In this document: positions 2,136 to 40,575 of the stretch, piece by piece
Numbering within the stretch: position 1 is the stretch's first letter
Layout: each line of letters opens with the position of its first letter
Virus record (IMG/VR): IMGVR_UViG_3300033997_000571
Span: 1-40,887 of that record
Strand: one strand, 5' to 3'
DNA length: 40,887 nucleotides
Origin: a virus
Notes under the pieces: model-generated
The model's database searches: none
Told to the model about the DNA's origin: nothing
What the model saw: the letters and a program-made list of their open reading frames with translations, nothing else
Made by a program: the position numbers and the translations under genes

Positions 2136-2594
2136 TCAAGCTCCTTTAAGGTTGTCGTACTGGGACATGGTCCGGCCGCGCATGATCGCGATCAGCAGCT
2201 CGGCATACTTGGGATCGGTGGCGTAACCGGCCTTCGTCGCGGCGCACGCCCAGCCTTCCCCCGTCTTCTCCTGGAAGCAGGCGGCGTAGCGCGGATTGGC
2301 CTTGAAGAACGCGGCGTAGTCAGCCATACAGGCCTCCAGCGTCGCGTAGGCGCGGAACTTGTCGTCCACCTTCGTGCGCACGCCTTTGATGAATTCGTGC
2401 GTGGTGACGGTGACGGTCGGGCCTTTCCACTTCGGGCCCGGCTTGATGCCGAACAGGTTGTTGCCCGGCGCGCGGGCGCCCCAGCCGGACTCCAGCGCGG
2501 CCTGGGCCAGGATGAAGCTCGCGGGGATGCCCGTGGCGCGGTGCGTGGCTTGGGCGGCCGGCAGCAGCATGGCAATGAAGGCGCTGGGCGGCAT
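2136..2594 (-). CDS. Endolysin, FlgJ-type glucosaminidase (GH73), 152 aa
   Basis: The protein reads as a compact glucosaminidase domain: PASFILAQAALESGWGAR carries the catalytic Glu35 (A-x-x-E-S-G-W-G), followed by NNLFGIKPGPKWKG and later FRAYATLEACMADYAAFF and YATDPKYAELL, the order seen in FlgJ/GH73 muramidase-type enzymes. It would cleave the glycan backbone of peptidoglycan at lysis. There is no signal peptide, so export should depend on the holin gene just upstream. Start at 2594, three bases after the holin stop; the lipoprotein gene follows two bases after its own stop. Confidence 0.88.
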   Translation of the reverse strand: MPPSAFIAMLLPAAQATHRATGIPASFILAQAALESGWGARAPGNNLFGIKPGPKWKGPTVTVTTHEFIKGVRTKVDDKFRAYATLEACMADYAAFFKANPRYAACFQEKTGEGWACAATKAGYATDPKYAELLIAIMRGRTMSQYDNLKGA

Positions 2595-2597
2595 GAG

Positions 2598-2843
2598 TCA
2601 GCCCTTCCAGTGCGATGCCAACCAGGTCAGAAAGCCGCCCAAGGAACCGGCCGCTCCGCCAACGACCATCAGAGTGCGCCATCCGCCCTGTGCCTCATGC
2701 ATGGTGCGCAGTACTTCGTCCAGCTTGTCGTGCAGCTGCGCATTCGTATCGCGAAGATCCGCAACAGCAGCTTTCAGGTGTGCGACTTCGACCTGGATTG
2801 TCGCGACCGCGATGGAGTTCTGTTGCTCAGTGGTAGGGCCCAT
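2598..2843 (-). CDS. Holin-like membrane protein, 81 aa
   Basis: Residues 10-50 form a long amphipathic helix (IQVEVAHLKAAVADLRDTN). A single hydrophobic segment follows (about 55-77, TLMVVGGAAGSLGGFLTWLAS) and a short basic tail, the architecture of XhlA-like one-TM holins and holin accessory proteins. The gene starts the lysis cassette, just ahead of the endolysin. The ATG at 2843 is preceded by GAAAGG. Its promoter is probably the dyad element at 2885-2926. A holin role is inferred from topology and context. Confidence 0.75.
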   Translation of the reverse strand: MGPTTEQQNSIAVATIQVEVAHLKAAVADLRDTNAQLHDKLDEVLRTMHEAQGGWRTLMVVGGAAGSLGGFLTWLASHWKG

Positions 2844-2884: not shown

Positions 2885-2926
2885 AGTTTCCTGTTGTGCC
2901 CGTCTCATTTCCAGGAAAGTTGAGAC
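2885..2926 (-). promoter_or_regulatory. Late promoter site 1 (lysis unit): 25-bp dyad plus -10
   Basis: The dyad at 2902-2926 has outer arms GTCTCA and TGAGAC and matches two other sites at 15408-15432 and 21105-21129 in length and arm sequence. On the minus strand it ends 11 bases before GAAACT (2890-2885), which occupies the -10 position. The dyad would cover the -35 region, as for Mor/C-type activators. It lies just downstream of a terminator and 59 bases upstream of the holin ATG, so it should start the lysis transcript. This copy is the most degenerate of the three. Confidence 0.65.
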
Positions 2927-13304: not shown

Positions 13305-15383
13305 TTACGCGCCGGCGCCCTTGTACAGGCCGCGGTGGTCGACCGCCTTGGCTGCGAAGTCCAGGCGGCACTTCCAGGTGACGCCATCGACTTCGAAGCC
13401 GTTCTGGCTGTCGATGACCGGGCCTTCCGCGCCGTCCAGGTAGCAGTACTCGACGGTATCGATCTGGCTGTTGTTGCTGGCCAGGTACCATTCCTTGTCG
13501 CTCACGCTGTCGAGGATCGGCTCGACGATCGGCTCGACCGCAGTGCGGCCGCCGCTGCGGAATTCGTTCACGTCGCCCTGCTTGGCCGGAACATAGTTCG
13601 AACTGGTCAGCTGGTAAGCGTCCTGCTCCAAGGAGGCGGGGACGATCAGGAAGTTCGGCGACAGGTTCAGCTCTTCGTTCTGCAGGCCCTTCTGGACACG
13701 CATCGCGGTGCGGCCGGCCTTCAGGGCGGACAGCTGCAGGGCCGAGCCGGCGCCGGTGCCGAGGTTCTTGTGGTCCGAGTGGAACAGGACGGTGCCGTCA
13801 CCCATGGTCGGGTTCGAGGTCAGCTGGCTGTACACCAGGCGATTCTCCAGGCGACTGGAACTTGCACCGAATGCCGACACGAGGCGCTCGAAGGCACGCA
13901 GGTCGTCGTTCACGATGGCCTGGCGGGTCAGCGACACCATGCGGCCGTAGGTCACCAGCGCATAGCTCACGCCGGCGTCCTTCATCGTGCCGTACTTGAA
14001 CTCGCCGTGTTCGTTGGTCTGCAGCAGCTCCGGGGCGCCCGACAGCTGCACGATGCTGATGTTCTTGAAGTCCGGCGCGTTCGGCGCGCGGCGTGCCCAC
14101 TGGGTGTAGGTGCCGGCGTTCTCGGCGTATGCATCGCGCAGACGCTTGCTCGCCACGTTCTGGAACAGGGCAGCGAAATCGCTCGTGCCGTGCATGCCGG
14201 AGCGGTAGTGCAGCATCTCCTGCGCGAGGGTCATGCGGTCCATGCCGCGGGTGTTGACGCCCCGCGCTTCCAGGAAGTCACGGCCGATTTCGAGCAGGCT
14301 CATGCCGCGGTACTGGCGCCCGTTGTCGGTCAGTTTCGTACCGGCGTGGATGCGATGCATCACTGCTTCTTCGATGCCGGCGATGCGGGTCTGGTGCTCG
14401 TCGCTGACGGTCACAATACGGCCGACGTTGTTGTGGCCACCGCGGGCGGCGTCGTTGCGGGCCAGCTCTTCCAGCACGGCAGCGCGTGCCTGGTCGACGG
14501 TGCCGCCACTGCGGATCAGACCAGCGGCCAGGTTAGTCACGCCGTGGCGGACGCACAGTTCGGTAATGTCCGCCGAGCGGGTGGCGGCTTCGGCGGCTGC
14601 GCGGGCAGCAGCGTCGTCCGGTGCTGGCGCGGCAGCAGGTGCCGGCGTAGCAGGAGCCGCGGCCGGAGGAGTTGCCGAGCGGGCGGCGTCGACAGGCGCG
14701 GTGTTCTGGGCGCCCGGTTGGGTAGCAGTTGGCATGTTGTCTTCCTGGTTGGATGGAGCGGAATGGGCGGGCGCCCGGGTGATGAACTCGCACTGGACAC
14801 CGTTCGACGGCTGGCTGCGCGTGCTCGCGTCAGCGTCAGCTGGGACGGTGACAAAACTGATTTCATAAGGCTGCCAGGCGACGGCGCGGTACAGCGGCAT
14901 GGTGCCGCCGTCGGTGCGATCGATGGTGCGAGTGATCTCGTACCTGCTGACGCTGTAGCCGACGCTGATGGCGCGGATGATGCCAGCCTTGATGTCGGCG
15001 ACGATCTCGGCAATATCGGCGCGCTTGGAAAGACGCAGAGTGGCCCTGCCCTCGCCGTTCTCAATGCTGCCGCGGATGGCAACACCGAGAATAGACCCGA
15101 TGCCGCCATAGGTGCGATGGTTGTCGAACACCTGAACAGTGCCAGCGGCGAAGCGCGACATGTCGACTGCTTCAGGCGTGACAGCCAGCTCTTCCTCGTA
15201 GCTGGTCTCGGTCCACCAGTCGTAGCGCCGGACGCGCGCGCCAGTGGTCCAAACCACCTCGACGGTGTTGTCGGCATCGTTAAATGTGGCGGGGACCAGC
15301 TCAGCCGAGCGGCTGAGCATGGGCATCGTGCGCGGATCGGTCTCGGCCCGGGCTTGGGAGGTCGCAGGAGTTGGCGTCGTCAT
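13305..15383 (-). CDS. Prohead protease / major capsid protein fusion, 692 aa
   Basis: The N-terminal part (about 25-190) is an HK97/S78-type prohead protease, with likely catalytic His89 (VFDNHR) and Ser140 (IRAISVGYS). An Ala/Pro-rich linker spans about 210-265, then a scaffold-like helical region, then a Mu gpT-like major capsid domain (about 370-692: MSLLEIGRDFLEARG, LVTYGRMVSLTRQAIVNDDL, NFLIVPASLEQDA). Self-cleavage would free the capsid subunit. ATG 15383 is preferred to an in-frame ATG at 15401, because the promoter element ends at 15391, seven bases before it. MPTATQPG at residue 217 is a possible internal start for a shorter form. Confidence 0.88.
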   Translation of the reverse strand: MTTPTPATSQARAETDPRTMPMLSRSAELVPATFNDADNTVEVVWTTGARVRRYDWWTETSYEEELAVTPEAVDMSRFAAGTVQVFDNHRTYGGIGSILGVAIRGSIENGEGRATLRLSKRADIAEIVADIKAGIIRAISVGYSVSRYEITRTIDRTDGGTMPLYRAVAWQPYEISFVTVPADADASTRSQPSNGVQCEFITRAPAHSAPSNQEDNMPTATQPGAQNTAPVDAARSATPPAAAPATPAPAAAPAPDDAAARAAAEAATRSADITELCVRHGVTNLAAGLIRSGGTVDQARAAVLEELARNDAARGGHNNVGRIVTVSDEHQTRIAGIEEAVMHRIHAGTKLTDNGRQYRGMSLLEIGRDFLEARGVNTRGMDRMTLAQEMLHYRSGMHGTSDFAALFQNVASKRLRDAYAENAGTYTQWARRAPNAPDFKNISIVQLSGAPELLQTNEHGEFKYGTMKDAGVSYALVTYGRMVSLTRQAIVNDDLRAFERLVSAFGASSSRLENRLVYSQLTSNPTMGDGTVLFHSDHKNLGTGAGSALQLSALKAGRTAMRVQKGLQNEELNLSPNFLIVPASLEQDAYQLTSSNYVPAKQGDVNEFRSGGRTAVEPIVEPILDSVSDKEWYLASNNSQIDTVEYCYLDGAEGPVIDSQNGFEVDGVTWKCRLDFAAKAVDHRGLYKGAGA

Positions 15384-15390
15384 GCAGCCC

Positions 15391-15435
15391 ATTCTGCGCA
15401 TTGCACTGTCTCAATTCTCGGAAAATTGAGACAGT
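15391..15435 (-). promoter_or_regulatory. Late promoter site 2 (capsid/tail unit): dyad plus -10
   Basis: A perfect 12-bp inverted repeat (ACTGTCTCAATT, 15405-15416; AATTGAGACAGT, 15424-15435) with a seven-base centre fills the gap between the 63-aa gene and the capsid gene. The shared 25-bp core is 15408-15432. On the minus strand the core ends 11 bases before CAGAAT (15396-15391), and seven bases later is the capsid ATG. The dyad could also fold as an RNA hairpin, but it has no following T-run on the minus strand and recurs only at unit starts. Confidence 0.75.
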
Positions 15436-15445
15436 TTTTCGAAAG

Positions 15446-15637
15446 CTAGTTTTCAACGCCTTCGACTCGGTATCGGCCATCAACTAGTTCAAGCTTCATT
15501 GAAGGGTAAGCGGCGATCGCTCCCGCCGCGCCCGAATCCCGAGCAGGGTCTTCACTCACGAGGTCCGGCGGATCCGTCGTCTTACTCGCTGCAGCCATTT
15601 GTTGGAGCACTGCTGGGTTGTCGGCAATGCTGATCAT
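15446..15637 (-). CDS. Small phage protein, 63 aa, unknown function
   Basis: The ATG at 15637 shares a base with the stop of the preceding gene (TAATG), so the two are translationally coupled. The sequence is hydrophilic (AVLQQMAAASKTTDPPDLVS, ending LVDGRYRVEGVEN). It is the last gene of the unit starting with gpW. No family is recognised; the context suggests a virion or fibre-linked peptide. Confidence 0.6.
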   Translation of the reverse strand: MISIADNPAVLQQMAAASKTTDPPDLVSEDPARDSGAAGAIAAYPSMKLELVDGRYRVEGVEN

Positions 15638-16167
15638 TAAGTATCCAGCCTGTTGAAATGCGTCGTCTTGTCGAAGCGTTCGCCGTTCGCACAGCGTACA
15701 CGAGCGGTCCAGAACCAGTCCGATGGAGGCTCGCCCTCAACCCCGCCGAGGAATACCACGACGAACGTCCGTGTCACGCCCGCCACTACCGCCGTCTGAA
15801 TCGCTGGGTCGGACAGCTTCGTAACTCCGTTGAGCAAGATCTCCGGCTGACCTGGGACTGGACTGGTGTTGCGGGAAGTCAGCTCGTCGGTGATGTCGGC
15901 GGCATAGTAGCTTTCCTCATCCGGGTCGCGGTCGGTAACCCACTTATCACCTCTTTTGTAGGGTAATTTTGCGCTCATCTGTTCAAACCTCACTCTTGGT
16001 CCACTACTTTCAAAAATCACAATACGGCTGCGGCTCGCTTCGAACACGACTATGCGCTCAGCGGACAGCAGTGCGATGTCGACCGTGCCGCCAGGATCAG
16101 GCTGCGAGCCGACCTCGTTCGGCAGCTCGCCCAGGGCCAGCTCGCCGATTGCTGCGAATCCGAGCAT
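15637..16167 (-). CDS. Phage structural/fibre-associated protein, 176 aa
   Basis: The N-terminus MLGFAAIGELALGELPNE matches a short beta motif common at the start of phage fibre-linked proteins. The C-terminal half (TNTSPVPGQ-type loop, then VTRTFVVVFLGGVEG, WFWTARVRCANGERFDKTTHF) resembles small immunoglobulin-like virion modules. It lies one base after the esterase gene in the inserted host-interaction cassette. A second possible start is MSAKLPYKRGDKWV. Function not assigned. Confidence 0.55.
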   Translation of the reverse strand: MLGFAAIGELALGELPNEVGSQPDPGGTVDIALLSAERIVVFEASRSRIVIFESSGPRVRFEQMSAKLPYKRGDKWVTDRDPDEESYYAADITDELTSRNTSPVPGQPEILLNGVTKLSDPAIQTAVVAGVTRTFVVVFLGGVEGEPPSDWFWTARVRCANGERFDKTTHFNRLDT

Positions 16168-16168
16168 G

Positions 16169-17818
16169 TCAGGTCACCGTAATCGGTGTTGGGGTTGGAA
16201 ACAGCGGCAGACCGATACGAACGTCTGTGCCGCTAAATATATTGCCACCCGATCCGTCGTCAAAAAACGGGTATTCGACCGGCTCGTAAAGCAAATTCGT
16301 GATATCCGAGTTCGCGCTCGCCTGAGTGCCGACCAAGCCGCCGCAGTGCTTCACGTAGAACGTCGACGGTGCGCCCGCTACGGTGATCTGCACCGCGCCC
16401 GCGATTGGCGTCACATTGGTGACGGCCAGGTCGGTGCCACTGAAATCGGCGGCGGTGTTCGCATACCAGCCCGTAATGGTCCCGGCGTTCTTCGCGGCCA
16501 GGGTCTTGCCGCCGGCAACGGGTAGCGCTACGACATCGCCCGACCGCGTCGCGGTGCCGACCAGGCGCGGCCCTGAGCAATCGAAGCGCGCGCGCACGGG
16601 GTCAAGGCGGTATAGCCGCGACTGGACGAGGCGACGAACGCTCTTGTGCTTGTCTTCGCCCTGGAAATGCAGGGTATTCTCCGGAGGCCCGAGGCAGTCG
16701 AGGGTCGTCCAGCCCGCACGCATGCGGACCCAGCCGTTCGCCTCGGCATGCTGCTGGAAGTCGAGCACGCCTTGCCTCAGGTACTCCACGTGGCGCACGC
16801 CGGCCGAGAACACGCCTAGTACGGCCGGCATGAAAGAAAGAGTCTGGTGCGTGCGGCCCTTGGCAGCGAAGAACCCGACCTGCATATCGACGTACTGCAC
16901 CATGTAGCCCTTGTACACGGCGGCGGTGTTCGTGTTGTTCGCTTCGCCCTGGTGAAAACCGAGGGCCTCCACGTCACCCGACCACACACGGTATGGCGAG
17001 GCGAAGCCGCACGCGCCGATGTCTGCGCCGCTATTCGTGAATAAAACGCGGTTTCCCGGCTTCGTACTCGGGTCATCGGGCAAGAAAGTTTGAATCGCTT
17101 GACTGTCGATCGCCCATAGCACCAGGCCAACCGGGATCTTCTTGCCGTGCTTCGCCTCCAGCGCCTTGGCCAGCATGCGCATGTAGATGAACCGGCCGAC
17201 CAGGCCCGAAGAGGTCGGCTCGCCCCATCCGTCTACCGTGAACACGTTCGCGATCAGGGCGTTGCTGCGAATGTAGTTCCATTCGGACTGGGACGTGCCT
17301 TGCACGATATCCGTGCTCACGCCTGCGCCCATCGTGCTGAGCATGTTCGACTGGCCGCCCATCTCGTCTACGACAGCTACGCCCCACGCAACGGCGCCAT
17401 TCGACCGAGTGGCCGTGTTCGCCGGCTGGTTGCCGTCGCGGATCTGGAGCAGGTATTTGCCGCCCGCGGTGACGTTTTGCAGAATCCCCACGCCTGCGCC
17501 GTTGGCGGCCGTTTGCCCGGTCAGCGGCGTCCAGTCCTTCACGACGGTGGTCGGCGCGTCCTTGAGCACGACACGCGCCTGCACCAGCGGCACACCGCCG
17601 CTATAGGTGAAACCAACCTCGATATCCGCGTGGCCGCCGTCCGGGTCGTTCTCGGTGCCCGCCTTGCGCTGCGCCATGTAGACGCCGTTCGCGTTGGCGA
17701 CGTAGAAATCGACCAGCAACAGCGAGGTCGCTAGATCGGCCGCGGGCGCCTCTGCCGCAGGCGCCAACAGCAAGCGCCCGCCCACGGATATGAGCTTTCC
17801 ATTGTTGGTTAGGATCAT
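16169..17818 (-). CDS. SGNH / sialate O-acetylesterase-like virion enzyme, 549 aa
   Basis: After a beta-rich N-terminal part (1-145) comes an SGNH hydrolase region: GGQSNM (154-159, nucleophile Ser157), GFHQGEAN (287-294) and a C-terminal block with CLGPPENTLHFQGEDKH (His383 or His391 as the catalytic His). These blocks are characteristic of the sialate O-acetylesterase (CE6/SASA) group. The enzyme would remove acetyl groups from host surface polysaccharide. A last beta-rich region (about 430-549) may bind carbohydrate. The ATG overlaps the stop of the FnIII fibre gene (ATGA), so the pair is made together. It probably sits on the tail or head surface. Confidence 0.8.
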   Translation of the reverse strand: MILTNNGKLISVGGRLLLAPAAEAPAADLATSLLLVDFYVANANGVYMAQRKAGTENDPDGGHADIEVGFTYSGGVPLVQARVVLKDAPTTVVKDWTPLTGQTAANGAGVGILQNVTAGGKYLLQIRDGNQPANTATRSNGAVAWGVAVVDEMGGQSNMLSTMGAGVSTDIVQGTSQSEWNYIRSNALIANVFTVDGWGEPTSSGLVGRFIYMRMLAKALEAKHGKKIPVGLVLWAIDSQAIQTFLPDDPSTKPGNRVLFTNSGADIGACGFASPYRVWSGDVEALGFHQGEANNTNTAAVYKGYMVQYVDMQVGFFAAKGRTHQTLSFMPAVLGVFSAGVRHVEYLRQGVLDFQQHAEANGWVRMRAGWTTLDCLGPPENTLHFQGEDKHKSVRRLVQSRLYRLDPVRARFDCSGPRLVGTATRSGDVVALPVAGGKTLAAKNAGTITGWYANTAADFSGTDLAVTNVTPIAGAVQITVAGAPSTFYVKHCGGLVGTQASANSDITNLLYEPVEYPFFDDGSGGNIFSGTDVRIGLPLFPTPTPITVT

Positions 17819-19383
17819 GGCATCGCGATGTTGAACAGCAGCGGCGTGCCGGTGCCATTGGTGTAGTAGATCGGGTCCGCTTGGCCTTCAATCCAGATTT
17901 CCAGACAGCGAGACTCGGCAGCCAGACCCGTGGCCGAACGCCAAGCAAACAAGCTCCCGCTGATACCAAACACGCCGTAATACTGCTGACTGGTCGCGCC
18001 GCCAGCCGTCCAACTACCGTAACGAGAGGCATTGGCAAGGCCGCTTGCTACGGCGTTTGTATTGCCAGTCGCGCCTGCCGCTAGCGTGGTCGAATCGTAG
18101 CTCATGCCTGCGGAGCGGATCGGATTGCCGCTACCGTCCACGCGGGCCCAAACGAACTTGACGTTAGGCGCAGCGTTGCCGCTGCCATCGAGCACTTGCA
18201 CGCGAATCGAAGATCCAGCGGACGCATAGCGGTCGCCGCTCGCCCCTTGCCATACGGCGGTGGTCGAAGGGGTCCAAGTGGCGCCGGAGATCGCTACACC
18301 CTGCGCGGTAGTCACGCGAGCTGTGTACGGGTTCGGCGCTACTGCGCTTGTCGTGACGGTCGCGGTCAGTACGTTCGAGATGTTGCCAGCGGCATCGTGT
18401 GCACGCAAACGCAGCTGATCTGTCGTGCTCGCCGGCCGTCCGGTGACGGTGCGACTCGTGACGTTCGCGGCGTGCACAGTCCATGTCGCGCCCCCGTCGA
18501 TGCTCGACTCGTAGTGGTCGACGCCCACGTTATCGGTCGCAGTCGGCCACGTCATGCTGTAGCCGCTGGTGGTGACGGCGCTGGTGCTGAGGCTGCCAGC
18601 TAGCCAGGTCGGCGCCTGCGTGTCCGGCTCACTCGAAGCTGCCGCCGTGGTGACGTTCACCGTCGCGACGGTCGAGACGTTGCCCGAGGTGTCCACGGTG
18701 CGCACGCGGACGGTGTAGGTCGTGCCTGCGGTGCGGCCGGTGACGTTGAAAGTGTTGCCGCTGGCGATCTGCGTCCAGCTCGTGCCGTCCAGGCTCCACT
18801 CGTGACGTTGCACGCCGACATTGTCTGTGCCGGCGGTGAAACTGACCGTGAAGCTCGTTTGCGTGACGCTGGACGACGCCAAGTTCGTGGGTGCACTCGG
18901 CACGGTGCTATCGGCCGGTCCCGCCGCGCCGCCGGTGTAAGACTTCAGCAAGCTGGCAGCAATCGTGCCCAACTCGCCGGCCGTACTGATTCCCAAGATG
19001 CGCACCGCGTCGGTCACAGTGGTCAGCGCCGGCAGATCGATCACCTCGACGGCATCCGCGATGCTCACTAGCTCCGACAGCCATTTGCTATCCGGCATAT
19101 TGGTGGCGACGGCGCCGCTCGGGAAGGTCTCCGCGCTGCCAGCGTTCGAGCTCCCACGCACCTCGACCCGCGTCAGCGTGCCCGGGCTCACGATCTCGAA
19201 CAGGGAGAATTCCCAGTTGCCCAAGGTGTCGCGCACCATGAACGTGGTCCTGTCGCCCACGGCCAGCTCATTTTCAGCGATCACCTGCGTTAGCGTGCGA
19301 AACCCGGTGACGGCCGACGTCAGCGTGAGCGTGGCAGTGTTCGTGCTGCTGGTGTTCTGCTTGAGGAGGTCGGCGAATTTCAT
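17815..19383 (-). CDS. Tail fibre / host-recognition protein with two FnIII domains, 522 aa
   Basis: The N-terminal 145 residues (MKFADLLKQNTSSTNTATLT, TTFMVRDTLGNWEFSLFEIV) resemble virion-anchoring domains of phage fibres. Two fibronectin type III domains follow (about 161-247 and 257-346, each with a DNVGV and a D-x-x-GN-x-S motif). The C-terminal part (350-522) is beta-rich, with a WRSATGLAAESRCLEIWIEG segment suited to ligand binding. It lies 17 bases after the portal gene and is coupled to the esterase. Its place inside the head module is unusual. Confidence 0.75.
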   Translation of the reverse strand: MKFADLLKQNTSSTNTATLTLTSAVTGFRTLTQVIAENELAVGDRTTFMVRDTLGNWEFSLFEIVSPGTLTRVEVRGSSNAGSAETFPSGAVATNMPDSKWLSELVSIADAVEVIDLPALTTVTDAVRILGISTAGELGTIAASLLKSYTGGAAGPADSTVPSAPTNLASSSVTQTSFTVSFTAGTDNVGVQRHEWSLDGTSWTQIASGNTFNVTGRTAGTTYTVRVRTVDTSGNVSTVATVNVTTAAASSEPDTQAPTWLAGSLSTSAVTTSGYSMTWPTATDNVGVDHYESSIDGGATWTVHAANVTSRTVTGRPASTTDQLRLRAHDAAGNISNVLTATVTTSAVAPNPYTARVTTAQGVAISGATWTPSTTAVWQGASGDRYASAGSSIRVQVLDGSGNAAPNVKFVWARVDGSGNPIRSAGMSYDSTTLAAGATGNTNAVASGLANASRYGSWTAGGATSQQYYGVFGISGSLFAWRSATGLAAESRCLEIWIEGQADPIYYTNGTGTPLLFNIAMP

Positions 19384-19400: not shown

Positions 19401-20870
19401 CTAAGTTTTGGATTCGGCAGAACCCTGCGTCGGTAGATTCCCCCGCTGCAAGAACAGCAGCACGTCCAGGATGCCTAGCTCGCGGAGCTTGTCAATGTCA
19501 CCCTTCAGCTCATTGAATACGACGTCGGGGTCGTAGCCACGCTGGCGGAGCTTCTCGCTGATGCTTGCTAGGCCGCCGCCAATCTCGGCGAGGTCCGCTT
19601 TGACGTCTTGCTCCGGGTTTACGTAGTCCCACTTCGGCGGGCTAAAGTCCACCGACTTGTCACGAGCTTTGATCTTCCCGGCTAAGAACGCGTGCTCGAC
19701 GAAAGCGTCGTGGATCGGCACCAGCAGCTTTGGGATTAGCACCAGCCATTGCATTGCCTGCACCGCGCGGCGGAAGTCCAGCAGTCGCACGCGAGCGCTG
19801 CTGAAATTCGTGTCTTTCATGTCGCCGGTCACCATCTCGTATGGCACGTCCATGCCAGTAGCAATGATGTGCAGCTGGAACTTCACATACTCCACATAGC
19901 CAGGCGCTGCCTTCGGCTCGACGACTGTGAAGTTCATCCCTGCCGGCATGCCGAAGATGTTGCCCCCGCCTAGCTCGCCCAGATCGCCCACGCCGTTTCC
20001 CTGGCCCGCTCCATCGCCGCCCATGGCGGCCGGGTTGTCCATGGTGGACATGTCGCCGCTGGCCAGCACGGACAGGCGGGTCTCCAGGTTCTTGCGTGAC
20101 AGCTCCGCGTCCTCGTACAGCTGCAGGTCGCGCACGCGGGTGATCACCGAGGCCAGGCGGGTGAAGCCGCGTCCCTGCCCCGGGCGCTCCGGGTTGAACA
20201 GGTGGATAATGTCCTTGGCCGGCACGCGCTGACTTTGGGCCCGACCGCGGGCGACAGCGATGTCGCCGGGGTGCCGATCCCACAGGTAGTAGGCGGCGAC
20301 GGCACCGAGCATGTCGTACTCAATGCCGTTGATGATCGTGTTCCCGTTGTGCGTCCCGCTTCGGGCGCTGTCGAGCCAATCGATTTCGAGCAGTTGCAGT
20401 TGCAGCGGGACCGGCAGACCATCGGTCGGGCGACGGGTGCGCAGGCGCACCAGCACCTCGCCGTCCTGCTCCATCGCAAAGTACGCTGCCCTCATCAGGC
20501 CGTAGTAGTCGAAGCGGCCATCGGCATCGCATACCTTGGACCATTCCTTGAACAGCTTGTTGATGATGTCCTTGTCCACGCCCGTGGCACGGGGAATAAT
20601 GCCCGTGCCGACAGTTGCCGTGGCGAGCCCCTTTAACGCCGCACTGATGTACGGGACGTTCTGCACCAAAGCGCGCGCCTTGACTCGCAGGGTGCGCGCG
20701 TCCGCCTGGTGGTCGGCATTTGCGCTTGCACCGGCACGGCGTGGACGCCAGGAGTCGCGTGGACTAGCCGCCTCGTATGCCCGCTCCAACTGACGGCGGG
20801 CGAAGTGGCGGCTGATGCCAGCATGCGGACTGACCCAGCCAACAATGCGATCGAGAATGTTCGGCATCAA
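19401..20870 (-). CDS. Portal protein, lambda gpB family, 489 aa
   Basis: The protein has the order typical of lambda-family portals: an N-terminal Arg-rich region (PRDSWRPRRAGASANADHQA), RVKARALVQNVPYISAALKG, DADGRFDYYGLMRAAYFAME, LQLLEIDWLDSARSGTHNGN and a C-terminal helical crown. It forms the dodecameric DNA channel at one capsid vertex, to which terminase and connector bind. It overlaps the gpW gene by four bases (ATGA) and follows the terminase block, the standard order. Confidence 0.9.
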   Translation of the reverse strand: MMPNILDRIVGWVSPHAGISRHFARRQLERAYEAASPRDSWRPRRAGASANADHQADARTLRVKARALVQNVPYISAALKGLATATVGTGIIPRATGVDKDIINKLFKEWSKVCDADGRFDYYGLMRAAYFAMEQDGEVLVRLRTRRPTDGLPVPLQLQLLEIDWLDSARSGTHNGNTIINGIEYDMLGAVAAYYLWDRHPGDIAVARGRAQSQRVPAKDIIHLFNPERPGQGRGFTRLASVITRVRDLQLYEDAELSRKNLETRLSVLASGDMSTMDNPAAMGGDGAGQGNGVGDLGELGGGNIFGMPAGMNFTVVEPKAAPGYVEYVKFQLHIIATGMDVPYEMVTGDMKDTNFSSARVRLLDFRRAVQAMQWLVLIPKLLVPIHDAFVEHAFLAGKIKARDKSVDFSPPKWDYVNPEQDVKADLAEIGGGLASISEKLRQRGYDPDVVFNELKGDIDKLRELGILDVLLFLQRGNLPTQGSAESKT

Positions 20871-21079
20871 TCACCCCGGTTCGTCGTAAAACGAAACCCG
20901 AAGACGCGCGGGCCGCGGTTCTGCAAGCCGCCGTTGAGCACCTTGGCGGTGTGCTCCCGGGCGGCGATCATCTGCGCGGTGTTCTGATAGGTGATGCTGC
21001 GCCCGTCGAAGACCACCGAAGTGGCACCGGAGGCGATTGCCGCGTCGAGGGCGTCGAGGTCTGCTTGGGAGATAGCCAT
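20867..21079 (-). CDS. Head-tail joining protein gpW-like, 70 aa
   Basis: Small, with MAISQADLDALDAAIASGAT, SVVFDGRSITYQNTAQMIAA and a basic C-terminus: the size and helix-hairpin-helix pattern of lambda gpW, which closes the portal. The portal gene follows with a four-base overlap. The ATG at 21079 lies seven bases after a -10-like TACCCT and has no clear Shine-Dalgarno, so the first mRNA of this unit may be nearly leaderless. Confidence 0.85.
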   Translation of the reverse strand: MAISQADLDALDAAIASGATSVVFDGRSITYQNTAQMIAAREHTAKVLNGGLQNRGPRVFGFRFTTNRGD

Positions 21080-21087
21080 GCCACTGA

Positions 21088-21129
21088 GGGTAGCGGTGAC
21101 GCTGTCTCAGTTCTCGGAAAACTGAGACA
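21088..21129 (-). promoter_or_regulatory. Late promoter site 3 (head unit): dyad plus -10
   Basis: The 25-bp dyad at 21105-21129 has arms GTCTCAGTT and AACTGAGAC and differs from site 2 at only two paired positions. It begins right at the stop of the Mor-like gene and ends 11 bases before TACCCT (21093-21088) on the minus strand, which is seven bases before the gpW ATG. No TTGACA-like -35 is visible; the dyad covers that position. It therefore looks like an activator-dependent promoter for the gpW-portal-fibre unit. Confidence 0.75.
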
Positions 21130-21423
21130 TTATTTCTTGCTGCCCTCTTGCTTAATGATGCGGTACACGGTAGCGCGCCCAATCCCCAAGCGCCGCGCCA
21201 CCTCCGCGGCGTTCCGACCATTGAACACCCGGAGCACCTCGGCAGTGATGCGCTCCCGCTCGGCCACCGAGCGACGCGGTATATAGATCTCGATCCCGCT
21301 GAACTCGCGCCGCACCTCTTCTTTCAGGACCGCAGTGCGCGACGCCATGTCAGGAAACTCAGTTTCGATGAAGGCGAAGATTGCATCGACCAGGTCGGGG
21401 TTGTCAAAGATTTCGGTGCTCAC
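21130..21423 (-). CDS. Mor/C-family transcription activator, 97 aa
   Basis: The GTG at 21423 overlaps the terminase TGA (GTGA) and follows GGGAG by six bases, so it is preferred to an in-frame ATG at 21489. The domain order fits Mu Mor/C: an N-terminal dimer region (DNPDLVDAIFAFIETEFPDM), a beta hinge (SGIEIYIPRR) and a C-terminal HTH (residues 70-92, NAAEVARRLGIGRATVYRII). Mor/C proteins bind dyads over the -35 region of middle/late promoters. Three matching dyads lie at the heads of the late units, one immediately after this gene. The regulatory link is inference from that match. Confidence 0.8.
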   Translation of the reverse strand: MSTEIFDNPDLVDAIFAFIETEFPDMASRTAVLKEEVRREFSGIEIYIPRRSVAERERITAEVLRVFNGRNAAEVARRLGIGRATVYRIIKQEGSKK

Positions 21424-23420
21424 CACTGTCTCCCGACGGGCCGGCGCGGCTGGCTGGATGGTAAGGACTGCTTCGTGGTCGGCTGCCATTGTTCGGCTCT
21501 CGTGGGGTTTGCTGGGATTGAGTTGGTTTCTGCTGCCTGCTCAACTAACTTGGATTCGCCCGACGTTCCGTCGGGAGCCGGCGGCTGTTCGAACAAGTCC
21601 GGGGTATCCGGGTCAACGAAATCGCGGAGCGCCTTCCACTGTGCTGCGGTCTTCTTATGCAGCCACAGGTAGTAGGCGCAGGCCAGGCCGTAGACCATCA
21701 GGTCGCCCGCCTCGTTACGGTCATTCTTTTTCTTTTCCCAGACGCGAATCTTCCTACCCCGCTTGTACACGCTCACGCAGTACTCGGCGGTGAGCTGCTC
21801 GTAATAATCGAGCGGGAGGTTCGCCGGGAAGTGGATTGCGCCCGGGCCGTCGACCAGGCGGTAACGCACTGCCAGGTAGTCCTTTGCCGTATCGGTACCG
21901 ATCAGCCACAGCTTGGCGCCGTGCGGGATGCTCTTGCCTTGCCAGTTCACGTCGACCAGCGACGGCTTCGTCGCCAGGATTGGCTTGCCGTAGCGCGACT
22001 CCCCCTTGATCGCGTAGACGTGGCGGTGCTGCCTGGTGCGGGTGAAGTTGTAGACGTCGTGGGTATTCGCACCGCCGGAATCGATGAAGGCCGCGGCGAT
22101 CGACAGCATCCGTCCGCTCACATGCTGGTAGCGGCCGAGCAACAGCTTGTCGAGCCGGTCCTGCGTGTCCTGGTCGGACGGCGAACCGGAAACCACCTGA
22201 TAGTCCACGATCCAGCATTCGAGGCCCTCACCCCACGCGATCACCTTCAGCTCGAAACGGTCCGGCTGCGTGTCGACGGTGGCCGTCAGGATCAGGCCGC
22301 CCTTCGGAACGGTGCCCAGCTTGTACGCTTCGGCACGCGCCTGCAGCTCGCTCGCCTTGGTCTGCTCCTTCTTGCGCTCCCAGCTGCGCGCCAGGCGGGT
22401 GTTGTAGAAGGTAATCATCTTCTCTTCGCTACCCTCTTCCAGCTTCGCCTTGGCCGCCTTGTACTCCTTCAGCAGGCCGGCCCAGGAGAACCAGCCATAG
22501 GGCAGGAACATGCCGTTGATGGTGAAGCTGATCGTCTCGCCGTCGCCGGCCACGCCTTCAGTCCAGGCGCCGCGTTCGAACATCTTCGTCTTGTCGGTCT
22601 CGTACATGAAGCAGCCGCACTCGATGCAGGGGTACATCGCGCGGCCGGCCTCGTCCTCCTGCAGGCGCTCGAAGACCAGCGTCTGAGGGTGACCGCAGTG
22701 TACGCAGTCGGCAAGCGCCTCCTGTTGCGTGCCCTTCTGGTACAGCGCCTCGATCGCCGAAGCATCCTTCTCGGTTGGCGAGCTGGGGTAGTAGGACTTG
22801 CGGTTGCGCTCATAGGTGGTCTGGCGCGCCTCTGCCAGGGCAACGGTATCGCCCTCACCGTCCACGTTGGCATCGGCGCGGTCGACCTCGTCGTACAGGA
22901 CGTAGCGGCAGGACAGCTCGGACAGGTTGGCCGCGGCTCCCGATGTGACGATGGTCAGCGCACCACCGGTGTATTCCTTGGTGTCCATCGTGTTGATCGA
23001 GTCGCGGGGGCGCGGCACCGCAACGCGCTCGCGCAGCACCGGCACCGCCTCGATGGTCTTGTCGATACGCTTGCTTGCGCGCTTGGCCAGCTTGCCGGTC
23101 GGGAGAATCCACAGGAAGTTCGACGGCGCCTGGGCCACGGTCGAGCCGAACCAGTTCAAACCCACCTGGGTCTTCAGCATCTGCGACGCACCCATCACCA
23201 CGACGCGTTTGCACGGATGGTGCGGCGACAGCGCGCGCATGACCTGGCGTGCGTGCGGAGTGCGACTGGTGCGGTACTTGCCGTACTCGCTGGCTCCCCC
23301 GCTTTTCGGAATGATCATGTGCTGGTCGGCCCATTCGTCTACCGGCAGGTTCGGATCCGGCTGCAGGCCGCGGCCGATTGCAGCGCGCACGACGCTGGAG
23401 GCTGGAGCAAGGCGCATCAC
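21420..23420 (-). CDS. Terminase large subunit, gpA family, 666 aa
   Basis: An N-terminal ATPase region has a Walker-A-like GASQMLKT (77-84) and Walker B VLYDEVDRAD (about 174-183). A zinc-ribbon-like insert follows (ADCVHCGHPQ ... YPCIECGCFM, CxxC-CxxC). A nuclease region comes later (AAFIDSGGANTHDVYNF). This is the lambda gpA/GpA-type motor that cuts concatemers and pumps DNA through the portal. The last 80 residues are low-complexity. It overlaps the small subunit gene by four bases, as usual for a terminase pair. Confidence 0.92.
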   Translation of the reverse strand: MMRLAPASSVVRAAIGRGLQPDPNLPVDEWADQHMIIPKSGGASEYGKYRTSRTPHARQVMRALSPHHPCKRVVVMGASQMLKTQVGLNWFGSTVAQAPSNFLWILPTGKLAKRASKRIDKTIEAVPVLRERVAVPRPRDSINTMDTKEYTGGALTIVTSGAAANLSELSCRYVLYDEVDRADANVDGEGDTVALAEARQTTYERNRKSYYPSSPTEKDASAIEALYQKGTQQEALADCVHCGHPQTLVFERLQEDEAGRAMYPCIECGCFMYETDKTKMFERGAWTEGVAGDGETISFTINGMFLPYGWFSWAGLLKEYKAAKAKLEEGSEEKMITFYNTRLARSWERKKEQTKASELQARAEAYKLGTVPKGGLILTATVDTQPDRFELKVIAWGEGLECWIVDYQVVSGSPSDQDTQDRLDKLLLGRYQHVSGRMLSIAAAFIDSGGANTHDVYNFTRTRQHRHVYAIKGESRYGKPILATKPSLVDVNWQGKSIPHGAKLWLIGTDTAKDYLAVRYRLVDGPGAIHFPANLPLDYYEQLTAEYCVSVYKRGRKIRVWEKKKNDRNEAGDLMVYGLACAYYLWLHKKTAAQWKALRDFVDPDTPDLFEQPPAPDGTSGESKLVEQAAETNSIPANPTRAEQWQPTTKQSLPSSQPRRPVGRQW

Positions 23421-23983
23421 TCGACCGCCTCGGCGGTGTCGATGCCCAGCTCGGACTGCAGCATGTGGGCCATGCTCGCAAGCAGCGCCTGCAGCTCACG
23501 CTCGATCACGTCCTCGCATGCTTCCGGCCTATCGAGCGCCGCGACCTCCGCCGCGATCCGGCGCGCGCAGTTGCTGAGCCCATCACGCAGCCCACGCGCC
23601 ACCTCAAACATCGAGGCTTCGACGTCCGCCTTGAGCAGGAACTTCCCGGCCATCTCGGCCAACTTGATCTCTGCCGCCTCAGCCTCCGCCGCCTCCCGAC
23701 GCGCCCGGCTTGTATCGTAGCCAGGCACCTTCACCGGCGACTCCGGACCTCCCGCCCCTCCCGCACCCGCTGCCGCCCCGGGCTGCGCCCCGTTTGCCAG
23801 TTGGTCAGAGCGGTGGCCGTTTGCGCGCTGGCGGGTGTGCTTTGCGTACAGGTGCGACGCATAGTCCGGATCGACCTTGCCATCGGTGACCGGGATCTCG
23901 CAGCGCTTCACCGCATCGTATGCGGACTGGCGGGAAATCCCCACGGTCTTGGCCCACTCGGCGATGGTTGTCAGGTTCGGCAT
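23417..23983 (-). CDS. Terminase small subunit, Nu1-like, 188 aa
   Basis: The N-terminus contains a winged-helix/HTH (TTIAEWAKTVGISRQSAYDA, residues 5-24) suited to recognising the packaging site. A flexible Gly/Ala/Pro-rich linker (about 68-85) and a long helical C-terminal region follow, probably for large-subunit contact. It overlaps the large subunit gene (ATGA). Three copies of CCTGACAA lie around its start and could be its DNA target; that is inference. Confidence 0.8.
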   Translation of the reverse strand: MPNLTTIAEWAKTVGISRQSAYDAVKRCEIPVTDGKVDPDYASHLYAKHTRQRANGHRSDQLANGAQPGAAAGAGGAGGPESPVKVPGYDTSRARREAAEAEAAEIKLAEMAGKFLLKADVEASMFEVARGLRDGLSNCARRIAAEVAALDRPEACEDVIERELQALLASMAHMLQSELGIDTAEAVE

Positions 23984-32218: not shown

Positions 32219-33088
32219 ATGGCATACGCGAACATGATGGCCTCCTTGAAGGCCGCAGCCGAAGACAAGAGCAATCCTGCCGTATCGAAGACAACTCAGT
32301 TTGCTATCGATCCGCGTGCGCTGGAGGTGGAAGAAGGCTTCAATGCCCGCCCGCTGAACCCCGACCACGTGGCCGAGATGTCGCTGGCCCTGCGCAACGG
32401 CGCGACCTTCCCGCCGCTGGACGTGCGCGTCGACGATGGCCGCATCCTGATCGTGGACGGCCACCACCGTCACGCCGCGGCCCTCGATGCGATCGAGAAG
32501 GGCTTCGAGATCAAGGCGCTCGACTGCCGCCAGTTCCGCGGAAACGACGCCGACCGGGTCGCCCACATGCTCAATAGCGCCTCCGGCCTGGCGCTCACGC
32601 CGCTGCAGCTGGGCGTCCAGTACCGCAAGCTGATCGGCTTCGGCTGGTCGGAAAAGCAGATCGCCGACCGTCGTGGCAAGTCCATCCAGCACGTGAAGGA
32701 CATGATCCTGCTCGCCGAATCGAACAGCGACGTGCACCAGGCGGTGAACGCCGGGCTGATTTCCGGTACCGCGGCGCTCAAGATGGTCAAACAGCACGGC
32801 AGCAAGGCCGGTGCGGTAATCCAGGAGGGACTGGAGGCAGCACAGGCGGCCGGCAAGACGAAGGTCACGCCGAAGGCGCTCGCGCGCACCAGCGGCCCGC
32901 GCAAGCCTGCCGACAAATTCATCCTCGCCTGGCTCGTCGCGAACGCACGCGTGGCGGACATCCCAGCGGTCGCTGGCTATACGCACCGCACGCTTAGCCT
33001 CGCCATCTCAATCCCGAAAGAGGTCGCCCACAGCGACGACCTGCACACGCTGCTTTCGAACGCAGCTTCCTATAACACCACCACCTGA
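32219..33088 (+). CDS. ParB/sulfiredoxin-domain protein, 289 aa
   Basis: Residues about 25-95 show a ParB N-terminal fold: FAIDPRALEVEEGFNARPLN, then PPLDVRVDDGRILIVDGHHR (GHHRHAAALDA, the GxHRxxA box, about 81-91). The middle (LGVQYRKLIGFGWSEKQIAD onward) is a helix-turn-helix like ParB. Such phage ParB-like proteins can be CTP-dependent clamps, nucleases or regulators; this one has no partner ParA nearby, so partition is unlikely. Role in DNA processing or regulation is inferred. Confidence 0.8.
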   Translation: MAYANMMASLKAAAEDKSNPAVSKTTQFAIDPRALEVEEGFNARPLNPDHVAEMSLALRNGATFPPLDVRVDDGRILIVDGHHRHAAALDAIEKGFEIKALDCRQFRGNDADRVAHMLNSASGLALTPLQLGVQYRKLIGFGWSEKQIADRRGKSIQHVKDMILLAESNSDVHQAVNAGLISGTAALKMVKQHGSKAGAVIQEGLEAAQAAGKTKVTPKALARTSGPRKPADKFILAWLVANARVADIPAVAGYTHRTLSLAISIPKEVAHSDDLHTLLSNAASYNTTT

Positions 33089-39350: not shown

Positions 39351-39521
39351 TTAAGCAGCAACTCTAGACGGCAGCGCCGTCGACTGCCTCTGCTTTTGCA
39401 CCATCGTTGCGAATTCCCTCGACTTGTTCATCTGCTCCCTCTGGATTCGCTCCATCTCCGCCTTGGTTTCCTGCATGCTCTGGTGCTTGCTCGTCAGCAG
39501 TATTTTCATCAGCTCGGTCAT
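39351..39521 (-). CDS. Small coiled-coil protein overlapping protease gene 3' end, 56 aa
   Basis: ATG at 39521 has a very good Shine-Dalgarno (AAGGAG, six bases upstream) and encodes MTELMKILLTSKHQSMQETK and AEMERIQREQMNKSREF, a charged coiled coil with G/C-ending codons. It lies in another frame over the last 158 bases of the protease gene, whose own C-terminus there is low-complexity, and its strong start suggests this is the better gene in the overlap. It may be a protease partner or an antitoxin-like peptide; inference. Confidence 0.65.
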   Translation of the reverse strand: MTELMKILLTSKHQSMQETKAEMERIQREQMNKSREFATMVQKQRQSTALPSRVAA

Positions 39522-40383
39522 GTTGCTCTCCTTGGTGGGACTGGTTATTTCGAATAAAAATTGGGCCAATATTTGCTTGCTCGCAAAACATCTGGTCCCA
39601 AAATAGTTTTATGAATTCTCGCTCTTCACTGGTTGCGCGCTGAACTGACGTGAACAGGGTCGCAGCCTCTTTTCGGTCAATCACGAAACCATGAGCTGGG
39701 TAGCCCGCTACGAGCCGGCTCAGGGCACCGTGCTGCAACGATCGCGTCTGTTCGTTCAGTCGCTGACCGTAATCATGAGCAATTCGCATTGCCCGCTGCA
39801 TCTCCCCGAGCCGGTTCGGATCGATTTGATTATACAGAGGAGCAGTCAACCCGATCGCCACGTTAGCGGCAAATTCACCTGCCAATCTAGTGGATAGGCG
39901 GCTCGCCCGGCGCACTTCGATCAAGGTCTTCATGAATGCCTCACGAGCATGCACTTGAGCCGCTTCCATCGCCTCCATTATATCGAGGCCAGAACTCCGT
40001 TCTTCAAGCTCGGAATCCTTCCGAACTTGGATATCGAGAGGGCCAAGCTCCCCCAGGTCATCAATCGCAAGCTCATGTGCACCGATTGCAACAAGGGTGC
40101 CAGCACTCTTACAAAAGCTCGGGATCACCAGGCGAATATTCTCGTAGTTATGCTGCAGACAACGGGCCATTCGATAGCCGCCGTCAGGGTCCCCACCGTA
40201 GGTCGTCAGGAACACCGTGCACTTTTTGTTCTGCTTATGGAGCGCGATTTCTGACGAGAGCTGCCTATGAAGCAACCTGGAGATCGGTTGGCTGATCAAA
40301 ATTACGTCTCGGTCGGCTTGGCTCTGCAGCAGCCGAACGACCTCATCGGGCATTGGAGGAGCACCACTAGCGTCGCGCATCAT
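39364..40383 (-). CDS. SDH-type serine protease (ClpP fold), 339 aa
   Basis: The core VFLTTYGGDPDGGYRMARCL, IPSFCKSAGTLVAIGAHELA (nucleophile Ser in CKSAGT) and DDLGELGPLDIQVRKDSELE, and the end YPAHGFVIDRKEAATLF, follow the SDH_sah family of ClpP-like serine proteases. The acidic low-complexity C-terminus (about 50 residues) overlaps another gene and is unlike the family. ATG 40383 is chosen; ATG 40380 and GTG 40488 are alternatives. It lies in cargo beyond the integrase, possibly in defence or stress control. Confidence 0.75.
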   Translation of the reverse strand: MMRDASGAPPMPDEVVRLLQSQADRDVILISQPISRLLHRQLSSEIALHKQNKKCTVFLTTYGGDPDGGYRMARCLQHNYENIRLVIPSFCKSAGTLVAIGAHELAIDDLGELGPLDIQVRKDSELEERSSGLDIMEAMEAAQVHAREAFMKTLIEVRRASRLSTRLAGEFAANVAIGLTAPLYNQIDPNRLGEMQRAMRIAHDYGQRLNEQTRSLQHGALSRLVAGYPAHGFVIDRKEAATLFTSVQRATSEEREFIKLFWDQMFCEQANIGPIFIRNNQSHQGEQHDRADENTADEQAPEHAGNQGGDGANPEGADEQVEGIRNDGAKAEAVDGAAV

Positions 40384-40575
40384 TGTCCCAAGGAAAGAAT
40401 ACTGAGCAAAAACGAATCTGTGGGAGATTATCAGAAGCCTACGCCCAAGTACATTGCTAATTGCATCTGCATTGACCGAAAGCAACACTTTCCTAGCGCC
40501 TGCGCTGGTGACAAGTCAGATCGAATCCTCGCACCCAACCAGCCAGAATGCCTGGGCTGCCCCATCGGCAACAAC

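Follow-up and report, generated by a model that had tools for sequence, protein, structure and literature searches.

The window analysed here, that is, the whole stretch of 40,887 nt, belongs to a prophage whose hosts are soil and water bacteria. In minus-strand order it carries a CII-like gene, a primase, one further gene, the small and large terminase subunits, a putative activator and the promoter P1, followed by gpW, portal, cargo genes, P2, the capsid/protease gene and tail genes with the tape measure, and finally by P3, an 81-aa holin-like ORF and the endolysin (Table 1). A CI-like repressor and a tyrosine integrase are encoded by the other strand; with these and the CII-like gene, the tyrosine integrase and lambda-style repressor expected from the original prediction were found. 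The 81-aa protein, for which there is no PHROG match, is probably holin-like. The capsid gene most likely starts at ATG 15383, 7 nt past the P2 -10 hexamer. Its longest ORF begins at ATG 15401, inside the promoter and upstream of the -10, and automatic annotation would misplace the start.

Table 1. Genes and predicted promoter elements, in minus-strand order (positions are those of the window)
Feature	Position	Strand	Remarks
Terminase small subunit	23417..23983	-	phrog_57
Terminase large subunit	21420..23420	-	phrog_15 (1e-209); directly upstream of the activator gene
Mor/C-family gene (putative activator)	21130..21423	-	97 aa from GTG 21423; PF08765, phrog_532
P1 dyad GTCTCAGTTTTCCGAGAACTGAGAC	21104..21128	-	predicted activator site of the gpW/portal unit; about -48 to -24
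P1 -10 hexamer TACCCT	21087..21092	-	11 bp past the dyad
gpW-like head-tail adaptor	20867..21079	-	phrog_2545, profile match from residue 1
Portal protein	19401..20870	-	phrog_21
P2 dyad GTCTCAATTTTCCGAGAATTGAGAC	15408..15432	-	predicted activator site of the capsid/tail unit
P2 -10 hexamer CAGAAT	15391..15396	-	
Capsid/protease gene	13305..15383	-	phrog_4523 (E 7e-235)
P3 dyad GTCTCAACTTTCCTGGAAATGAGAC	2902..2926	-	predicted activator site of the lysis unit
P3 -10 hexamer GAAACT	2885..2890	-	41 nt to ATG 2843
81-aa protein	2598..2843	-	one likely membrane helix
Endolysin	2136..2594	-	phrog_3513 (3.6e-51)

The gene preceding the P1 dyad had been assigned to the Mor/C family from its sequence, and by the Pfam test it belongs there: PF08765 scores 36.9 bits against a cut-off of 24.9. 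The protein also matches PHROG 532, 'late transcriptional activator' (4.6e-10), and matches Mu Mor directly, though weakly (1rr7; phmmer E 0.0008). A C-terminal helix-turn-helix (HTH) with the NGRN...TVY motif is present, as seen in alignments including Mu Mor and in fold matches to 9l0y_M and 9l0x_G, and its recognition helix reads GRATVYRIIK. The fold match of the model to 9l0y_M has a Z of 6.6 over 48 residues at 2.9 A; the Z of 6.3-6.6 reached by the HTH against the Mor/C complexes 9L0Y and 9L0X is equalled by many other HTH proteins. AlphaFold gave a weak model (pLDDT 67): the N-terminal half, where members of the family have their dimerisation domain, is poor, with helices predicted at low confidence, and the Pfam match begins at residue 55. 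The protein has no cysteine. Its most likely start is GTG 21423, which forms a GTGA overlap with the terminase stop; if it began instead at ATG 21489, which is in frame, it would be 119 aa long. Residues are numbered here after this 119-aa form, in which positions 104, 105 and 106 are G, R and A. BLASTN of the region against named phages gave no match, and tblastn retrieved only remote Mor proteins of 24-35% identity.

The window contains three matches to GTCTCA-N13-TGAGAC and no more. Dinucleotide shuffling gives a chance expectation of 0.03 matches, and none of 100 shuffles reached three. The original prediction had named three dyads, and all are real; the one following the Mor-like gene lies at 21104-21128, so that its earlier placement at 21105-21129 was one base off. 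They had also been described as heading late units outside genes, on the minus strand exactly 11 nt before the hexamers GAAACT, CAGAAT and TACCCT, and as lacking a good -35, and each of these points holds at all three places. All sit in gaps between likely genes: the P3 dyad separates a 180-aa ORF from the 81-aa lysis ORF, the P2 dyad stands before the capsid gene, and the P1 dyad lies between the Mor-like gene and gpW. The best -35 matches at 15-19 bp spacing reach 4/6, 3/6 and 3/6.

Scans of IMG/VR and GTDB genomes yielded about 150 distinct relatives, whose named hosts are almost all Burkholderiales (Massilia, Undibacterium, Rhodoferax, Acidovorax, Variovorax and Curvibacter). Among them is a prophage of M. 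alkalitolerans, the activator homologue of which is 82% identical. Dyads were located by arm symmetry and a partial arm consensus, with no use of the downstream sequence. At the unique sites after the activator gene, A at position 13 and T at position 17 past the dyad are both invariant (135/135), and T is found at position 12 in 124. A -10 hexamer with A2 and T6 therefore stands exactly 11 bp past the dyad in 135/135, for dyads of 24-28 bp, and the distance is the same for dyads of 25, 26 and 27 bp. Since the -10 distance is constant across dyad lengths, the length varies in the centre only and the spacing of the proximal half-site is fixed. At secondary places A13/T17 are present in 82 of 87, on one strand only in 80; of the five exceptions one shows a one-base shift and the other four are apparently chance dyads. 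The layout is that of an activator-dependent promoter, with a dyad centred at about -36 in place of the -35.

The scan of relatives that had been proposed as a check returned the predicted arrangement: the dyad follows the Mor gene and recurs before the capsid and lysis genes. In nearly all relatives (about 140) a conserved dyad of 24-28 bp, corresponding to the P1 dyad, lies just past the Mor gene. In some it is shifted by roughly 0.3-2.2 kb of inserted sequence; L004, L005, L011, L024, L026 and L037 carry such extra sequence between the activator gene and P1, with promoter and gene intact. In most sufficiently long contigs the capsid gene is preceded by a second dyad, the counterpart of P2, at a distance of 1.8-5.4 kb from the first. 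A third, the counterpart of P3, is found at about 15-20 kb before the lysis genes in many near-complete phages; the third site was not found in some phages, partly because of incomplete contigs. Sites of the P3 type precede lysis genes even where the endolysins are seemingly unrelated (sequences read by eye). Lysis regulation thus appears to be kept while the lysis module is exchanged.

The original prediction tied the dyad to the Mor-like gene, and dyads without such a gene were looked for in whole genomes. Among 245 genomes of one host's bacterial family there are 15 occurrences of the promoter pattern, of which 14 are in five genomes with a Mor homologue adjoining and one is elsewhere. Of nine host genomes, seven have promoter matches, all of which were read as phage sites. 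In Pseudomonas phage Lodos the terminase is related (50% identity), no Mor gene lies behind it, and the promoter site is absent from the 14 kb checked. Promoter-first scans covered all 2.9 million IMG/VR contigs. With GTCTCA arms, PF08765 was over its cut-off in 16 of 30 contigs, and in 14 of the 16 tested that exceed 20 kb. Of the two long contigs without PF08765, one has capsid and tail genes and the other the tape-measure gene; portal, gpW and terminase are seen in neither, so that the place of an activator gene may fall outside the piece.

Residues 104 and 106 of the recognition helix covary with positions 3 and 4 of the half-site. The helices GRAT and SRAT go with GTCTCA arms, GRTT with GTNCCA, SRRT with GTGNCA, HRAT with GTCGCA and SRVT with GTTTCA. 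Positions 3-4 are CT in 89 of 90 arms with G104-A106 and in all 120 with S104-A106. With G104-T106, position 4 is C in 25 of 26 arms and position 3 is free; with S104-R106, position 3 is G in 12/12 and position 4 is A or C. H104 combined with A, S or T at 106 goes with G at position 4 (14/14). S104-V106 has TT at positions 3-4; L281, which has V106 and stands outside the filtered count, shows T at position 3 in both arms by eye. When all protein columns were scanned for information on positions 3-4, column 106 came first and 104 second, and in the control with an inner base neither was among the top columns. The tree and column tests exclude three relatives for which the automated pass had returned wrong dyads (L011, L091, L131), and the remote homologues L491 and L492, from two genomes, were not part of the code test; no recognisable dyad is present in L491 (helix DRATLYR). 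Secondary sites within the same phages obey the same residue code. Departures are one arm each in L183 and L109; in the GRTT phages the proximal P3 arm has T at position 4, off the code, and S106 goes with T or C according to residue 104. In L292 (helix SLASVYR), where leucine stands in place of R105, both half-sites have T instead of G as their outer base (TTCTCA); this single case suggests that R105 may read position 1. The covariation ties the protein to its dyads through sequence comparison.

Shared ancestry was considered with a protein tree built with residues 104 and 106 masked. Among phylogenetically independent pairs on all branches of the best tree, A106 gave 14.3 contrasts in the same direction and 0.1 in the opposite one (median p 1e-4). 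The corresponding values are 7.7 and 0 for T106, 12 and 0 for {A,S,P}106 versus C3, 3 and 0 for R106, and 5 and 0 for H104. The controls, 104 G versus the rest and 107 S versus T, show no comparable link. On well-supported branches only, there are five A106 contrasts (3.4 same, 0.2 opposite), which are too few and not significant. With sequences this short the tree is not firm; the weight of the promoter-first scans and of the secondary sites does not depend on it. The scan for GTGNCA promoters yielded five stretches, each in a contig with an R106 activator. That for GTCGCA promoters yielded 53; all six with a Mor gene have H104, one of them being new, and most of the stretches have no Mor gene within reach and are presumably due to chance.

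We consider it very probable that the 97-aa protein is a late-gene activator and that the dyads replace the -35 of three promoters. The activator would be made from the minus-strand early operon, as the position of its gene near the operon end behind the terminase genes suggests. Probably as a dimer, it would bind the 25-bp dyads, whose half-sites lie near -46 and -27; in each half-site, positions 3 and 4 would be read by HTH residues 104 and 106. By replacing the -35 it would recruit or position the host RNA polymerase at the -10 exactly 11 bp on, and so would turn on the gpW/portal unit from P1, the capsid/tail unit from P2 and the lysis unit from P3. That one Mor-like protein may serve three late units, as the original prediction held, is supported by the gene-linked sites, the scan of relatives and the covariation of arms and helix.

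Binding and covariation alone cannot separate activation from repression, and dyads at -48 to -24 could block the polymerase. The protein might therefore be a repressor or autoregulator at the dyads, the true promoters being activated by something else. We regard this as improbable: a usable -35 is absent from all three sites, the -10 lies at a fixed 11 bp in every site, and the studied relatives Mu Mor and Mu C activate such promoters (PMC4390567, PMC4461284). Still less probable is that the dyads are RNA hairpins, either terminators or processing sites, and not protein sites. They are indeed near-perfect inverted repeats between operons, and one is followed by a T run on the plus strand. In the direction of late transcription, however, the U run is absent, the arms track protein residues with a -10 at a fixed distance, and the arms of GRTT phages mismatch each other, yet each fits the half-site code of the protein. 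The missing downstream U run and the mismatched GRTT arms led us to reject the hairpin reading. Recombination sites of a resolvase-like protein, which the likeness of the HTH to Tn3 resolvase in sequence and fold might bring to mind, are scarcely credible, as HTH_7 scores 23.3, under its cut-off of 23.8, whereas Mor is above its own, the sites face late genes with a -10 behind them, and a serine resolvase or invertase was rejected for want of a catalytic domain in the 119 aa.

In the window the ATGs of gpW and capsid lie 7 nt past the -10 (P1 21079-21092, P2 15383-15396). P3 differs, and an SD-like AAAGG stands between its -10 and ATG 2843. Among relatives the ATG is 6-8 nt past the -10 at P1 in 94 of 143 phages, and at 74 of 83 secondary sites, which mostly precede the capsid gene; a simple motif test found no Shine-Dalgarno sequence in these 94 and 74 cases. 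An in-frame stop bars an earlier start in 62 P1 and 30 secondary-site cases. The PHROG profile matches gpW from residue 1, in agreement with this start, and codon-position variability starts at the second codon. Sigma-70 transcripts normally start about 6-8 nt past the -10. With the ATG at this same distance, leaders should be 0-2 nt, and transcription from P1 and P2 would start at the start codon or 1-2 nt before it. The P1 and P2 head mRNAs are therefore predicted to be leaderless.

In phages P2 and P4, one small activator (Ogr or Delta) serves several late operons of an integrase phage through dyads upstream of -35-less promoters. The system predicted here resembles them in all these respects: an integrase phage, several late operons, one small activator, dyads and no -35. 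Ogr, however, is a zinc-finger protein (Cys4), whereas the present protein is cysteine-free and of the Mor family, and the site position differs. A second parallel is Mu C, of the same protein family, where one activator likewise serves several late promoters with a non-consensus -35. Mu C turns on Plys, PI, PP and Pmom, from a site that overlaps the -35 or sits just upstream (PMC4461284). Unlike the transposable Mu, the present phage has a tyrosine integrase and a CI-like repressor; its dyad is 24-28 bp long with 6-bp outer arms and a fixed 11 bp to the -10, and its head promoters run directly into start codons. The system would work like Mu C, differing in phage type, site architecture, promoter-to-gene fusion and the visible code.

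Mu Mor, the middle activator of Pm, shares the family, the HTH fold and a promoter without a -35. Its binding element in Pm is 16 bp long, contains 5-bp repeats, has its centre at -43.5 and takes the place of the -35 (PMC4390567). The structure of Mu Mor (1RR7) and RNA polymerase complexes of Mor (9L0Y) and C (9L0X) have been solved. The present dyads do not have the Pm-type layout of a 16-bp site with two 5-bp repeats centred at -43.5: the site is 24-28 bp long (25 bp here), the half-sites are about 19 bp apart and the centre is at about -36. Mor serves one promoter in Mu, compared with two or three in the present phages. The elements of a Mor/C promoter (a -10, no -35 and a dyad near -35) are present at the sequence level only.

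It seems somewhat likely to us that, in these integrase phages, a Mor-type two-residue code sets the promoter letters and gives rise to parallel, non-interfering late regulons, with leaderless head mRNAs late in infection. Within a literature search of limited coverage, which is not proof of absence, neither the present regulon nor a recognition code for Mor/C proteins was found described. Sequence alone connects about 140 putative phage activators here with their promoters. The Mor/C family has solved structures and no specificity code was found for it; the covariation offers it a testable two-residue DNA-recognition code, together with natural promoter/activator pairs that differ in specificity. 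Late promoters would become predictable for many Burkholderiales phages, which form a large group that is unstudied. Moreover, the leaderless mRNAs predicted here belong to genes that are among those expressed most strongly by phages and would be expected to have a ribosome binding site.

Three cargo genes (15446-19383) lie between portal and P2 and encode proteins of 522 aa (weak fn3 match), 549 aa (weak carbohydrate-esterase match) and 176 aa (unassigned). In phages without such cargo the distance from P1 to P2 is only about 1.75 kb, and the positions immediately ahead of P1 and P2 therefore resemble insertion spots. Outside the head operon and beyond the integrase, a 374-aa protein (39364-40488) has a weak match to ClpP-like serine proteases. 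Finally, a 289-aa protein with KorB/ParB-type HTH domains is encoded at 32219-33088, in the early region of this integrase phage.
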